47,855 nucleotides of DNA from Spirochaetales bacterium (lineage in GTDB: Bacteria; Spirochaetota; Spirochaetia; Treponematales; Treponemataceae): assembly GCA_003246335.1 (NCBI GenBank), contig QKAR01000095.1:1-47855 (forward strand). The letters are read 5' to 3'. This document shows positions 33,461-39,666 of the stretch, piece after piece. How positions within the stretch are numbered: the first letter of the stretch is position 1; each line of letters begins with the position of its first letter. The notes beneath the pieces were generated by a model that was given only the letters and a program-made list of their open reading frames with translations, was not told where the DNA came from and ran no database searches. The translations under genes and the position numbers were made by a program.

Positions 33461-34114
33461 TTGGCAGACGATATCCTGACTATTGAAGAGGTCGCGAAAT
33501 ACCTTCGCGTTTCCGAGCGAACCGTCTATGATTGGGCCCAAAAAGGCGAAATTCCCGCGGGTAAAATCGGGACCGTTTGGCGATTCAAAAAAGATGAAAT
33601 CGAAAAATGGGTTAATGAACGCTTGACGAGCTCTACGCGCGGCGGGCAGGGTTCGCAGCTCATCCAGGTGCAAAATATCCTGTCGCCCGATCGGATCGTT
33701 CTGCTGAACCACTCGACCCGCCATGACGTGCTGGTCGCGCTGTCGGAAACGCTCGGGACCGCCCCGCAAATAAAAAACCGTCAGGAACTCACCGTCGAGA
33801 TTCTCAAGCGCGAGGAGCTCATGTCGACCGCGATCGGCCGCGGCATCGCGATCCCTCACGTGCGGCTTTCGTCGGTTACCGACCTCGTGATGGCCGTCGG
33901 TATCTGCAAGAACGACATTATCGATTTTCAGACGATTGACGACGTTCCCGTGCGCCTTTTGTTCATGATCGCGGCAGCCTATAATCAACACTCGTATTAC
34001 TTGCAAACCTTGTCGTTTTTCTCGAGTAAGCTGAAAAATAAGTCGTTGCATGACGGATTGTTGAACGTATCGACGCCGCTTGAGGCGTATAACCTCCTTA
34101 TCGCGCGCGAATAG
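33461..34114 (+). CDS. Excisionase-type HTH fused to PTS EIIA domain
   Basis: 217 aa from TTG 33461, placed by GAGGAG at 33447-33452 and by the start of the HTH domain; there is no ATG alternative nearby. Residues about 5-55 are a MerR/HTH_17 (excisionase-like) DNA-binding domain (LTIEEVAKYLRVSERTVYDWAQKGEIPAGKIG...WRFKKDEIEKWV shown in part). Residues about 70-215 are an EIIA-2/Ntr domain with the phosphoacceptor His in GRGIAIPHVRL (about 138). This directly couples PTS phosphorylation state to DNA binding. It is unlike PTS-regulation (PRD) activators because the HTH is the small excisionase kind. Promoter and gene stand alone. Confidence 0.92.
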   Translation: MADDILTIEEVAKYLRVSERTVYDWAQKGEIPAGKIGTVWRFKKDEIEKWVNERLTSSTRGGQGSQLIQVQNILSPDRIVLLNHSTRHDVLVALSETLGTAPQIKNRQELTVEILKREELMSTAIGRGIAIPHVRLSSVTDLVMAVGICKNDIIDFQTIDDVPVRLLFMIAAAYNQHSYYLQTLSFFSSKLKNKSLHDGLLNVSTPLEAYNLLIARE

Positions 34115-35946: not shown

Positions 35947-35975
35947 TTGACACGAATCTTCGTTTTATCCATCAT
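35947..35975 (+). promoter_or_regulatory. Candidate near-leaderless promoter of the DUF4912 gene
   Basis: Perfect TTGACA at 35947-35952, 17 bp, CATCAT at 35970-35975. Predicted start near 35982 is 0-4 nt before ATG 35985, and there is no Shine-Dalgarno. Confidence 0.45.
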
Positions 35976-35984
35976 ACGGCAAGC

Positions 35985-36638
35985 ATGGAAAATACACCGC
36001 TAACCCGGGCGTATCTAGAGACCTTATCGACGAAGGACTTAGTTGATCTCGCCGATACGAATGGTATCGATATTCCCGAGGGGCTAAACCGCCGCTTTAT
36101 CATCGGCGAGTTGCTCGACATCGCGGCCGATGAAGACCTTGTATCCGCCGATCTCGTTGACGCCGAGTTCAGCGGTTCCGTCGAGAGCCTCCCCGACACG
36201 TATAACGAGACTCAAATCAGCGTTCTCGTGCGCGATCCGGGCTGGGCCTTCGTCTATTGGGATTTTCAGGCCTCGTTGCTCTCCGCCATAACCGCGAATC
36301 ACCGATTTGAGACTTTTTTTCTGCGCGTGTATTCGCTTTCAACCTCGAATCCCCCGACCGTAATCGATTATTACGACGTCTCCGTTGGAGTTCACGACCG
36401 GAAATGGTATGTCCATCTTACCGGGCGCGACGAAGCGTGCCTCATTGATCTGTTTTATCGCAATCTTCAGGAAAAAGAGCAATTGCTCGCTCGATCGAGA
36501 CAGTTCGCTATTCCCGTCTGCGGCATGGGCGAACAGACTTTTGGCGTAAAGCGCCGAAATCCTCCGCTGGTTGAGCTTTCGGGCATTGAAGAATTGCGTA
36601 AAATTCATTTCAAAAACCATCGACAATCCTTTACGTAA
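35985..36638 (+). CDS. DUF4912 protein with SAP/Rho-N-like N-terminus
   Basis: 217 aa. Residues about 8-48 (LETLSTKDLVDLADTNGIDI and following) resemble the helical SAP/Rho_N-type motif. Residues about 75-190 match DUF4912, with the diagnostic VLVRDPGWAFVYWDF, then RVYSL, WYVHLTGRDEACLIDLFYR. The function of DUF4912 is unknown; its beta-sandwich-like pattern has been likened to carbohydrate-binding-type folds, but that is inference. No ribosome site is visible. A gene for a GH57-like protein follows after 16 nt, and the two are probably cotranscribed. Confidence 0.85.
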   Translation: MENTPLTRAYLETLSTKDLVDLADTNGIDIPEGLNRRFIIGELLDIAADEDLVSADLVDAEFSGSVESLPDTYNETQISVLVRDPGWAFVYWDFQASLLSAITANHRFETFFLRVYSLSTSNPPTVIDYYDVSVGVHDRKWYVHLTGRDEACLIDLFYRNLQEKEQLLARSRQFAIPVCGMGEQTFGVKRRNPPLVELSGIEELRKIHFKNHRQSFT

Positions 36639-36654
36639 CAAGGCGGTATCGATA

Positions 36655-38256
36655 ATGGCCGAAAATTCGATAATTTTTCTGCTCGACGCGAATTTACCCT
36701 ATGTTCGACACCCCTGTGCCCCGGGGTGCGTGGAGGAAGCGCGGCTTTTTAACGCGTTATCCGGCACGTATTTGCCGTTATTGCGCGTTTGCACGGCTCT
36801 CGAAACCGAGGCTATTCCCTTTAAAATCGCTATCGCCTTTTCGCCGACGTTATGCGAAATGTTCGCCGATCCGCTTTTGCAGGATCGCTACGCCGCCTAT
36901 CTTGATCGGACGCTCTCGCTCGGTCTCGACGAACTGGAGCGTACCGCCGACGATCCCTCCAAACGGTCCCTCCTTACGGCCCAGCTCGATCAAGTGCGGC
37001 TGAATCGGCGCGATTTCGTCGAAATTTACGAAAAAAATATATTGAGGAAATTCGATTATTTTGCCGGTCGCGGCTTCATTGAGCTTCTCGCGACGGCGGC
37101 CACGAACTGCGCCCTTCCTTTATTTATCGATATTCCCGAGACGATAAACGCGCAAATTGAGACGGGCCTCGTGCTCTACCGAAGGTTTTTTACGACGGTT
37201 CCCTCGGGTTTCTGGCTACCCGCGATGGCTTGGACTCCGGCCCTCGGCGCGATTGTGAAGTCCTACGGATTTTCCTATACCGTTCTCGAGTCACATGCGC
37301 TTTTGTTTTCCGATCCCCCTCCGGCTGCGGGCGTTTTCGCCCCGACGCAATGCGATAGCGGTCTCGTCGTTTTCGCCCGGGATAGCCGTGCCTGTCAGGA
37401 AATTCTCGACGAGAAATCCGGCTTCGCGAGTCGTGCGGAGTACCTCGACGTGAATCGCGATATCGGCTTCGAATTCGGCGAAGAAGAGCTTTCTTCGGTG
37501 TTCGACACGAAACTCGGCCGTAGGGCCACCGGTTATCGGTATTGGGCGCGAGGAAGTTCCTCCTCGGTCGAGTCGCAGTATGACGTCGACGCGGCGCGCG
37601 GCCGTGTGCGCGCCGACGCGCAAGCGTTTCTCAAATCACGCAGCGATACCTTGCGCCGCGCCTCCGAAATGCTTGAGGGCGCTCCTGTTTCTTCCGTCTG
37701 CGCGTTCCCCGCTTCCGTATTTGGGGAAATCTGGGCGGAAGGCGTTGACTGGCTCGATTCGGTTTTTCGCCAGAACGCCGAATCGTCGGATCTATCCGGC
37801 TCGGTTAATTTTGCCCTCCCTGCCGCGAAAATCGGTCAAGGTTCCGTCGATCGGCGCGTTTCGCCTCACTATTCGTCGTGGTTTCCGAGCGGCTATTTCG
37901 AGGAAGTGTTAAACGGTTCTAACGATTGGATGTACTCGTACGTGCGCAAGGCGACCGCGCGCATGATAGACCTCGCGGAAAGATTTCCCGACGATACCGG
38001 GCTCAAAGAGCGATCCCTTAACATGGCCGCCCGCGAGCTTTTGCTCTCCCAAACCATGGATTGGTTTTTAATGATGAACGAGGGCGATAGCGCGGAGTAC
38101 GCGAAGAAGCGTTTCGAGGATTCCGTGCGCGCCTTCACGATCGTCTACGAGTCGCTTGGCTCGAATTTCATCAGCACGGAGTGGCTCACCACGACCGAAA
38201 AAGAGCATAACCTTTTTACCGATATTAATTACCGGGTGTTCAGCAAGAAAAAATAG
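36655..38256 (+). CDS. GH57 branching-enzyme homologue lacking catalytic residues
   Basis: 533 aa from ATG 36655 with weak AAGGCGG upstream. Full-length similarity to GH57 alpha-glucan branching enzymes (AmyC/TTHA1902-type with DUF1957 C-terminal region) is visible: LPYVRH near the start, LLATAATNCALPLFID, GFWLPAMAWTP, FGEIWAEGVDWL and the late helical RELLLSQTMDWFLMMNEGD. The conserved catalytic positions are changed: HxHLPYV is DANLPYV, the motif-2 His (ATHG) is Asn, the nucleophile Glu of GFWLPE is Ala, and the Asp of the YDAELFGHWW motif is Pro. It is therefore almost certainly not an active glucan branching enzyme; a glucan-sensing or scaffold role is possible. The reading frame is intact, so this is not a pseudogene. 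Confidence 0.85.
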   Translation: MAENSIIFLLDANLPYVRHPCAPGCVEEARLFNALSGTYLPLLRVCTALETEAIPFKIAIAFSPTLCEMFADPLLQDRYAAYLDRTLSLGLDELERTADDPSKRSLLTAQLDQVRLNRRDFVEIYEKNILRKFDYFAGRGFIELLATAATNCALPLFIDIPETINAQIETGLVLYRRFFTTVPSGFWLPAMAWTPALGAIVKSYGFSYTVLESHALLFSDPPPAAGVFAPTQCDSGLVVFARDSRACQEILDEKSGFASRAEYLDVNRDIGFEFGEEELSSVFDTKLGRRATGYRYWARGSSSSVESQYDVDAARGRVRADAQAFLKSRSDTLRRASEMLEGAPVSSVCAFPASVFGEIWAEGVDWLDSVFRQNAESSDLSGSVNFALPAAKIGQGSVDRRVSPHYSSWFPSGYFEEVLNGSNDWMYSYVRKATARMIDLAERFPDDTGLKERSLNMAARELLLSQTMDWFLMMNEGDSAEYAKKRFEDSVRAFTIVYESLGSNFISTEWLTTTEKEHNLFTDINYRVFSKKK

Positions 38257-38267
38257 CGAAACGTCGC

Positions 38268-39551
38268 CTATTCAAGCTGCTGTAAGTCGTGAATTTTTTT
38301 CTGGATCGCGAGGGTGGTGGTCGCCGCGGCGACGCCCTCAATCGCGGGATCAAAATGCCGGTCTATTTCGAGCGCTTCATTCCACAGGCCTACCGCCGAT
38401 TCCAGTTCGCCCGCCGCGTATAACCGCAAACCGCGGATGTAGAGGTCCTCGACCTTCTTTTCCTTGTTCGCCCGCCCGCGATCGCCTAAGTTGAGTTTCG
38501 CCGCAAGGCTGATTCGGTTAAACAAGGCGACTTGCGTCGTCATATCAAGCGTATAATTGACGTTAAATTGCAGGTCGTTGACGTTCATTTCCCCGCCGAT
38601 CGTGACGCGGGGATTCGCTCCCTTGAGCTGGAAACCCGCTAAAAACGTGAAAAATTTAACGAATTCGACGGAAAAACCCGCGCCGTACGCCATTGATTCA
38701 GATTCCGCCACGTCGAGAAAATTCACCGGCTGCTGAACCTCGGCCGATATGGTCATCGGTTTCGCCCATTTCCAGGCCGCGCCGGCGGTTAATAAGCTCG
38801 GTAGGGCTTCCGACTCTCCTCCGCCGATCGGAACGACGGGCGGTCCTATGTTGCGCGCGGTCAATCCCACGGAAAAGTTTGGGTCGCGCGAATTGTAGAG
38901 CTTAAAGAAATTAAAGCGAGTTTGCATCCCAAAATCGCCCATAATGGTGAACGCGGACTGGTCTAAGCCCGAACCGGACTGAATCGTACCGTCGTTATCC
39001 GAATAGTCGGGCATACCCCGGTAGCCCGCCTTGAGATTGACGCCGAGGGCGATGCCTTTAAAGTAGTACCCCGCGAGGAAATTGTGCGATAGGTTGAGAA
39101 CGCCCAAGGTTTCGGTGTAGTATCCCCGAGATACCCGTTCTCCGAAGGAGTTATATTCGGTAAAGGGGACGTAAAAACACCGGATCGATGCGCCGTATCC
39201 CGTCGTGTCGGTTCTTTGAGTGAAAGATACCGTTTCCAGGCGAGAGTCGGCGATCCAGCTATTATGGAAAACGGCGAGTTCGGTGTTTTTCATCGTGGCG
39301 CTTCCGGCGGGATTCGTCTCGAAGAAACTAATATCGTTCGCGAGGGCGCTGAAGGCCGATCCCATCGCTTCCGAGCGGCCGCCTCCCGGTATCAGCAACG
39401 ATCGAAACGCCGTTTGCCCCGCGTTTTCGTCGGTGAGGGAGTCGAAAATACTGGATACTGAGGCATAGGAATCCGACAGGTCAAGCGCAACGCCCGACAT
39501 CATCAGAGCGAAAATCGTTACTACTGCGCAAACCGTTCGTTTTAGTTCCAT
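38268..39551 (-). CDS. UPF0164 family outer-membrane protein (FadL-like) with C-terminal TPR
   Basis: 427 aa. The signal peptide is about 1-25 (KRTVCAVVTIFALMMSGVAL). The N-terminal region AFRSLLIPGGGRSEAMGSAF and ISFFETNPAGSATMKNTELA are signatures of UPF0164, a Treponema family modelled as FadL-like barrels for long-chain fatty-acid or hydrophobic-nutrient uptake. Alternating aromatic strands follow up to about 355. The last ~65 residues (DLYIRGLRLYAAGELESAVGLWNEALEIDRHFDPA) form one TPR-like helical hairpin, probably periplasmic. ATG 39551 is preferred over GTG 39557; the ribosome site is weak. A TATACT at 39571-39566 (minus) may be the -10. Confidence 0.87.
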   Translation of the reverse strand: MELKRTVCAVVTIFALMMSGVALDLSDSYASVSSIFDSLTDENAGQTAFRSLLIPGGGRSEAMGSAFSALANDISFFETNPAGSATMKNTELAVFHNSWIADSRLETVSFTQRTDTTGYGASIRCFYVPFTEYNSFGERVSRGYYTETLGVLNLSHNFLAGYYFKGIALGVNLKAGYRGMPDYSDNDGTIQSGSGLDQSAFTIMGDFGMQTRFNFFKLYNSRDPNFSVGLTARNIGPPVVPIGGGESEALPSLLTAGAAWKWAKPMTISAEVQQPVNFLDVAESESMAYGAGFSVEFVKFFTFLAGFQLKGANPRVTIGGEMNVNDLQFNVNYTLDMTTQVALFNRISLAAKLNLGDRGRANKEKKVEDLYIRGLRLYAAGELESAVGLWNEALEIDRHFDPAIEGVAAATTTLAIQKKIHDLQQLE

Positions 39552-39666
39552 AGCCACCCAATAAAAGTATATTTTATTTTCGGTTAATATTCTGCCGTTT
39601 TATACTGGATTTGACCATTTTATCTGCCGAAATTTAAGAAAGGTATCGCTCTCGAATAAGGTTTTC

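Follow-up and report, generated by a model that had tools for sequence, protein, structure and literature searches.

A GH57 protein of branching-enzyme type with a predicted dead active site, encoded beside DUF4912 in treponeme-type spirochaetes

The GH57 glycogen branching enzymes are the closest known systems to the gene pair described here. Their solved representatives include Thermotoga maritima AmyC (2b5d), Thermus thermophilus TT1467 (1ufa/3p0b) and Thermococcus kodakaraensis TK1436 (3n8t). AmyC was later recognised as a glycogen branching enzyme (PMC6616209), and Table 1 of that article gives E185 as the nucleophile, D349 as the acid/base, H10 as a polariser and W29, W402 and W411 as aromatic gatekeepers. 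Within GH57, Martinovicova and Janecek (2018) also named a group of 'GBE-like' (glycogen branching enzyme-like) proteins, for which the text reports 60 bacterial sequences and a length given as 520 (PMC6037648). Here, we analysed a stretch of 47,855 nucleotides from a Spirochaetales bacterium (GenBank assembly GCA_003246335.1, contig QKAR01000095.1, forward strand), referred to as the window, in which a DUF4912 gene is directly followed by a gene encoding a GH57 protein of branching-enzyme type. We take the order of the window to be Treponematales and its family (f1) to be Treponemataceae.

The DUF4912 gene (positions 35985..36638, + strand) encodes a protein of 217 aa that matches PF16258 (E 5.5e-21, 75.5 bits vs a cut-off of 29.4). 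The GH57 gene (36655..38256, + strand) follows after a 16-nt spacer and encodes 533 aa from an ATG at 36655, and its longest frame begins at a TTG at 36571. Judged from this spacing, cotranscription of the two genes is plausible. The GH57 protein belongs to the family both by its Pfam profile PF03065 (Glyco_hydro_57; E 1.1e-21, 77.8 bits vs a cut-off of 21.2) and by its fold. Its C-terminal helical domain, BE_C, spans residues 431-529 (37945..38241, + strand; PF09210, E 1.8e-31, 108.9 bits vs 25). The protein scored below the cut-offs of both NCBIfam branching-enzyme equivalogs (NF041566, 189.3 vs 920 bits; NF041133, 167.9 vs 1000 bits).

AmyC is the nearest solved structure, aligning with residues 5-531 of the GH57 protein (E 6.8e-79). 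The predicted model, built from a 38-sequence alignment, had a predicted local distance difference test (pLDDT) value of 92.8 and a predicted template modelling score (pTM) of 0.92. It superposed on 2b5d with template modelling (TM) scores of 0.92/0.94 and a root-mean-square deviation of 2.3, and the top six rows of a Foldseek search were all GH57 branching-enzyme-type structures. Residues were called from an alignment of 105 locus proteins with AmyC, in AmyC numbering; we took H12 and H146 to be important conserved motif histidines. We found that all five checked active-site positions are replaced in the window protein: H10D and H12N in motif 1 (D11, codon GAC, and N13, AAT; 36685..36693), H146N in motif 2 (N151, AAC; 37105..37107), the nucleophile E185A in motif 3 (A190, GCG; 37222..37224) and the acid/base D349P in motif 4 (P352, CCC; 37708..37710), all on the + strand. 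The cleft tryptophan W411 has become V418 (GTG; 37906..37908, + strand), H355 is E, W29 is R, and W246 and F261 are replaced too; W402 and W418 are kept. H10 alone is a weak marker of loss, because it is N, Q or T in several outgroup proteins, from spirochaetes outside the order, whose other four positions are intact.

An initial annotation of the locus had read the nucleophile Glu as Ala with a GCG codon, the acid/base Asp as Pro and the motif histidines as Asn or Asp, and all of these calls were correct. In the alignment with solved GH57 branching enzymes that it proposed, the catalytic positions are replaced and the flanking motifs align. A frameshift or mis-set frame concealing the catalytic residues was rejected, since the alignment with 2b5d is nearly full-length and the flanking motifs are in place. 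The protein has the BE_C domain of an active branching enzyme and lacks its Glu nucleophile, Asp acid/base and polarising His. Taken together, the alignment and the predicted model strongly support a branching-enzyme-type fold with a dead active site, that is, a pseudoenzyme.

Across the order, 56 of 59 genomes contain a GH57 match, including all 44 with completeness of 90% or more and contamination of 5% or less (the window's own genome is included in both counts). Two of the 56 (G001 and G021) matched only through another GH57, and the G007 gene runs off the end of its contig. The pairing claimed in the initial annotation was borne out: in 54/54 order loci (the window and 53 relatives) DUF4912 immediately precedes GH57 on the same strand, with a gap of -14 to 88 nt. 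The GH57 frame is full-length in 52 of these 54 loci, one being split and one cut by a contig end. The split locus (L039, G028:C1:552819-559401) carries GH57 in two frames, which reflects either recent pseudogene formation or a misassembly.

Residue counts for the order rest on 62 members, omitting L039 (split), L057 (contig end) and the duplicates L063, L068 and L081; the outgroup omits L109. All five positions are kept in 0/62 members and both acids in 3/62. In f1, W411 is kept in 0/39 proteins, W29 in 6/39 and W402 in 11/39, and Glu stands at the nucleophile column in 5/39, via retention or reversal. The remaining families, f2-f5, keep W411 in 23/23 proteins, W402 in 21/23, W29 in 20/23 and D349 in 18/23, with Gln as the nucleophile residue in 14/23; W411 is kept in 37/37 outgroup proteins. 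Specifically, f3 and f4 have Gln or His at the nucleophile with the Asp kept in 16/16, and form a separate branch of the tree, while f5 keeps the nucleophile in 5/6 proteins but has the Asp or a His changed. In a quick tree of 97 rows (five trait columns removed; L080, L082 and L083 also omitted), the minimum number of changes is 7 for E185 and 12 for D349, and the gene tree largely tracks the families; support is weak in parts, with 25/94 inner branches open and three long-branch rows. A loss in stages was dropped as an explanation because the families with Glu replaced by Gln sit on their own tree branch. These patterns suggest that catalysis was lost inside the order while the pair was kept, and by different routes in different families. 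Separate losses occur outside the order as well (L091, L092/L093 and L099).

The phylum was surveyed in 296 genomes, of which 173 matched the GH57 model and 154 the DUF4912 model. Within the class of the window, the GH57 and DUF4912 lists each name 87 genomes and these coincide, as judged by reading the two lists, in which genomes without a match are incompletely given; neither gene was found in the small-genome family f7 among the rows listed. DUF4912 stands just upstream of GH57 in 26/38 loci from spirochaete groups outside the order. By count from the alignment table, which retains the rows omitted above, 22 of these 26 paired loci keep both acids and 14 keep all five positions; over all outgroup rows the counts are 33/37 and 25/37. 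We also scanned named genomes across phyla with an active-type alignment and active-site patterns and kept the best 80 of the loci listed, a design that informs adjacency and not the frequency of dead members. These 80 loci span many phyla, and DUF4912 lies upstream within 271 nt in 59 of the 71 that were usable (criterion of 400 nt and E below 0.01; nine had too little upstream sequence). The other 12 of the 71 lack an upstream DUF4912 by this criterion, and seven of them are cyanobacterial.

The ancestral pair was probably catalytically active. The initial annotation had counted homologues that keep the active site as evidence against its idea. Such homologues do exist, outside the order, but they likely represent the ancestral state, and therefore favour a secondary loss of catalysis with retention of the pair.

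We compared substitution rates in 14 pairs of close relatives. The ratio of nonsynonymous to synonymous substitution rates (dN/dS) in order pairs that gave a ratio was 0.034-0.132 for GH57 and 0.049-0.194 for DUF4912, with several ratios resting on dS above 1; divergence was too great for a ratio in three GH57 pairs and one DUF4912 pair, and the loci of three outgroup pairs lacked DUF4912. Values in the window's family were 0.05-0.13, and two outgroup pairs with intact enzymes gave 0.09 and 0.112. The order and outgroup values are similar, and the dead GH57 genes are thus about as constrained as the intact ones. This purifying selection, together with the full-length frames, supports the selection on the dead frame that the initial annotation had proposed. 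Relative to intact outgroups (L091, L092, L093 and L099 excluded from the active set), f1 showed a conservation change of +0.105 in residues 431-533 and of -0.066 in the rest of the protein (Mann-Whitney p 5e-8), for a block picked after a first look and with neighbouring residues that are not independent. In a circular-shift test, 2/533 block shifts reached the observed value, one of them being the unshifted block itself.

The AlphaFold2 model of the DUF4912 protein (pLDDT 80.7, pTM 0.50) consists of an N-terminal helical part, with helices at residues 8-13, 16-25 and 36-57, and a seven-strand beta-sandwich. The sandwich is the PF16258 domain (residues 73-181; 36201..36527, + strand). Its matches in the PDB are mostly generic FN3/Ig-type sandwiches (E about 5e-4), and a sequence search of the PDB found no convincing relative (best E 0.77). 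The N-terminal part (residues 11-46; 36015..36122, + strand) had been described as SAP/Rho_N-like. In the window protein no Rho_N/SAP profile is above cut-off and PADR1_N alone appears, sub-threshold (E 0.052), so the description holds weakly there. It fares better among relatives, where Rho_N matches at E<=1 in 14/51 and is above cut-off in 3/10 chosen from outside the order. A glucodextranase-B-like C-terminal domain was found at E<=0.5 in 5/10 of these chosen proteins (L175, L193, L138, L185 and L209, all of other phyla), above cut-off in L138 only, and hints at glucan contact in active pairs.

The C-terminal tail of the window's DUF4912 protein carries the motif NHRQSF (residues 211-216; 36615..36632, + strand). 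A tail pattern defined after seeing the DUF4912 alignment, [HY]R[QEH][SACG][FL], occurs in 39/41 f1 proteins, 0/23 f2-f5 proteins and 0/26 outgroup proteins. The motif is thus found in the same family that lost W411. Other clades have other tails: P[ST]RIL-type in many f3 and f4 proteins, STFK in many gut Clostridia and SSPG in Peptococcaceae-type loci. This pattern suggests that the tail is a docking motif particular to each clade.

Genome G030 is presumably Treponema pallidum Nichols, and we take its locus L025 to be TPANIC_0358, in part from the neighbouring genes. The genome comprises one contig of 1,139,633 bp and keeps the DUF4912-GH57 pair, with an acyltransferase gene beside it. The five positions of L025 read D, N, N, E and P; the nucleophile is kept and the acid/base and the histidines are lost. 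TPANIC_0358 has been published as a predicted carbohydrate-degrading alpha-amylase (PMC5956850). This enzymatic label is doubtful because L025 lacks the acid/base and the histidines. TPANIC_0358 is listed as a GH57 protein in a table of the top fifty expressed genes in vitro or in rabbit, with 595 and 260 fragments per kilobase per million (FPKM), and TPANIC_0361 is near it by gene numbering in the same article (PMC8525777).

Because the two genes are retained side by side despite the lost active site, the pair probably does a non-catalytic job. We propose, with moderate confidence, that the GH57 protein has been conserved as a partner of DUF4912 with a structural or allosteric rather than a catalytic role, and that it binds DUF4912 via its C-terminal domain and/or its vacated cleft. 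The ancestor would have been a widespread two-gene unit of an active GH57 glycogen branching enzyme and a DUF4912 protein, the latter often with a Rho_N/SAP-like head, a beta-sandwich and a clade-variable tail. In the window's order catalysis would then have been lost with the pair retained: in two families the nucleophile would have given way to Gln or His with the glucan cleft largely preserved, a third would have mostly kept the nucleophile with the Asp or a His changed, and the window's family would have eroded the whole cleft, with a relatively more conserved C-terminal domain and a new HRQSF tail on DUF4912. In this model the DUF4912 side would deliver the output of the complex.

A bolder and more tentative extension is that DUF4912-GH57 might be a pan-bacterial two-subunit complex with a non-catalytic job as old as the enzymatic one, of which only the former is left in treponeme-type spirochaetes, including T. 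pallidum. The new tail would, in most of f1, lie within the dead enzyme or on its surface, and the assembly would be a regulator or scaffold unrelated to glycogen.

Several observations weigh against a bound, non-catalytic partner. Families f25 and f43 (for example G188 and G109; L127, L129, L130 and L132) hold an intact GH57 and DUF4912 far apart or on different contigs, and adjacency is therefore not obligatory. No natural fusion was seen, as the two domains are always in separate frames in the loci compared. Adjacency and co-occurrence indicate a functional link, not contact. Two f1 proteins, L056 and the T. pallidum-like L025, lack the tail motif. Both acids survive in L049, L023 and L054, and the members nearest to intact lack only H10 (L054) or only D349 (L022). 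The choice of the C-terminal block after a first look also counts here, as do f2-f5, which retain the cleft and show the same direction of change, more weakly (+0.157 in residues 431-533 vs +0.051 in the rest). Cleft loss is therefore not the only setting in which the C-terminal shift occurs.

The strongest competitor, which we nevertheless consider unlikely, is a glucan-binding pseudoenzyme whose old cleft would bind glycogen or maltodextrin as a sensor or scaffold, with DUF4912 as the read-out. Glycosidases with Gln in place of the nucleophile can bind without cutting, and it is f2-f5 that combine frequent Gln with a surviving cleft; the glucodextranase-B-like domains outside the order fit as well. 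To this can be added the glycogen context, for which we examined a panel of 64 genomes, 35 of them in the order (own included; order counts read from lists): GlgA is above cut-off in 32/35 and GlgP in 23/35 order genomes. However, the cleft is mostly lost in f1, and G030 retains the pair and gave no match to the GlgA, GlgP or GlgB models, to which the search for glycogen genes was confined. Glycogen metabolism therefore does not explain retention of the pair in all members. The initial annotation's suggestion of a glucan-sensing module is not borne out in f1, and for the window's family the glucan-sensor reading is weakened.

It is improbable that DUF4912 is a nucleic-acid- or membrane-facing regulator which the dead GH57 merely stabilises, as a ligand-free chaperone or anchor. 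The Rho_N heads above cut-off outside the order and the shift of constraint to the GH57 C-terminus would suit such an arrangement; on the other side, the window's DUF4912 has only a sub-threshold SAP-like match, and no evidence identifies a target of the head.

We regard it as very improbable that the protein is still an enzyme, using another mechanism or residues from elsewhere, for example as the missing branching enzyme of the order. GH13 GlgB (TIGR01515) is above cut-off in 0/35 order genomes and in 5/64 genomes overall, all of other classes. With GlgA and GlgP common and GlgX present in the three genomes tested, something may make branches, and three members retain both Glu and Asp. Against this, the nucleophile column of a single family reads A, Y, S, E, H, F, D or Q, and the acid/base column is equally variable. 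This free variation argues that there is no conserved replacement residue.

Other candidates for the branching step were also considered. Sub-threshold GH13 matches are common (57/64 genomes; among those listed for the order, G038 scores highest with 92 bits), and an unusual branching enzyme may therefore exist. The 716-aa GH13 protein beside GlgP in the window's genome was rejected as a replacement enzyme, as it is GlgX; the GH13 proteins tested from G025 and G037 are also GlgX. A second GH57 of the window's genome, on contig C67 (L059:2985-4901, + strand), has 639 aa and is of 4-alpha-glucanotransferase type (1k1w, E 2.5e-36). It was rejected too, because its nucleophile column is Ala (WLPASAW). 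Among its relatives, 10/10 fetched from f1 read A, S, G or H at the nucleophile, and 8/10 from f2-f5 keep Glu. Since the second GH57 also lacks the nucleophile throughout the fetched f1 relatives, two GH57 paralogues have degenerated in parallel. The branching step thus appears unaccounted for in the order by genes above cut-off.

A functionless, decaying relic is hardly credible: extensive and repeated residue loss and the split gene of G028 would fit it, but dN/dS is far below 1, frames are full-length in 52/54 loci, the match is present in all 44 of the most complete genomes, and the pair is kept in a 1.14-Mb genome with, for T. pallidum, a high tabulated transcript level (PMC8525777).

The surroundings of the pair were also examined. 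A function assigned from neighbours was rejected, as at most 4 of the 13 contexts compared share any one neighbour family; 3 of them (the window, L230 and L237) share RluD-like, transglutaminase and deaminase neighbours. A promoter-like site at 35947-35975 was rejected because 2 sites were found vs 1.7 expected by chance. Near the pair, window positions 33461-34114 encode a helix-turn-helix (HTH_17) domain fused to a phosphotransferase system (PTS) EIIA_2 domain. Directly downstream, on the opposite strand, lies a gene for a UPF0164 family protein (38268-39557, - strand); the UPF0164 member TPANIC_0858 is reported as one of the highly expressed T. pallidum genes (PMC8525777).

These results link a well-studied enzyme with DUF4912, a family of unknown function, in many phyla. 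The lineages with graded catalytic loss and an intact partnership make a non-enzymatic job isolable. The results also suggest that a strongly expressed T. pallidum protein probably does not have the carbohydrate-degrading activity under which it has been published. A further question is which protein, if any, branches glycogen where GlgA and GlgP are common, GH13 GlgB is below cut-off and GH57 is dead.

In the literature searched, DUF4912 was named only in work on cotton and no report joined GH57 with a pseudoenzyme; most subscription papers and all supplements lay outside this search, and within that scope the DUF4912-GH57 pairing and its history of loss were not found. A dead relative of GH57 branching enzymes is not new in itself, because the GBE-like group has been described (PMC6037648). 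In the main text of that article 'treponema' is absent, and the two mentions of 'spirochaet' refer to Spirochaeta thermophila (PMC6037648). The window protein is GBE-like as defined there, a branching-enzyme relative without one or both catalytic residues (PMC6037648). It resembles AmyC in its full-length alignment, its fold (TM 0.92/0.94) and its BE_C domain, and differs from it at the five checked positions and at several cleft residues. On the DUF4912 side, 51/51 aligned proteins match PF16258 at E<=1, with the window protein exceeding the cut-off, and the window's family differs from PF16258 at large by its HRQSF-type C-terminal tail.

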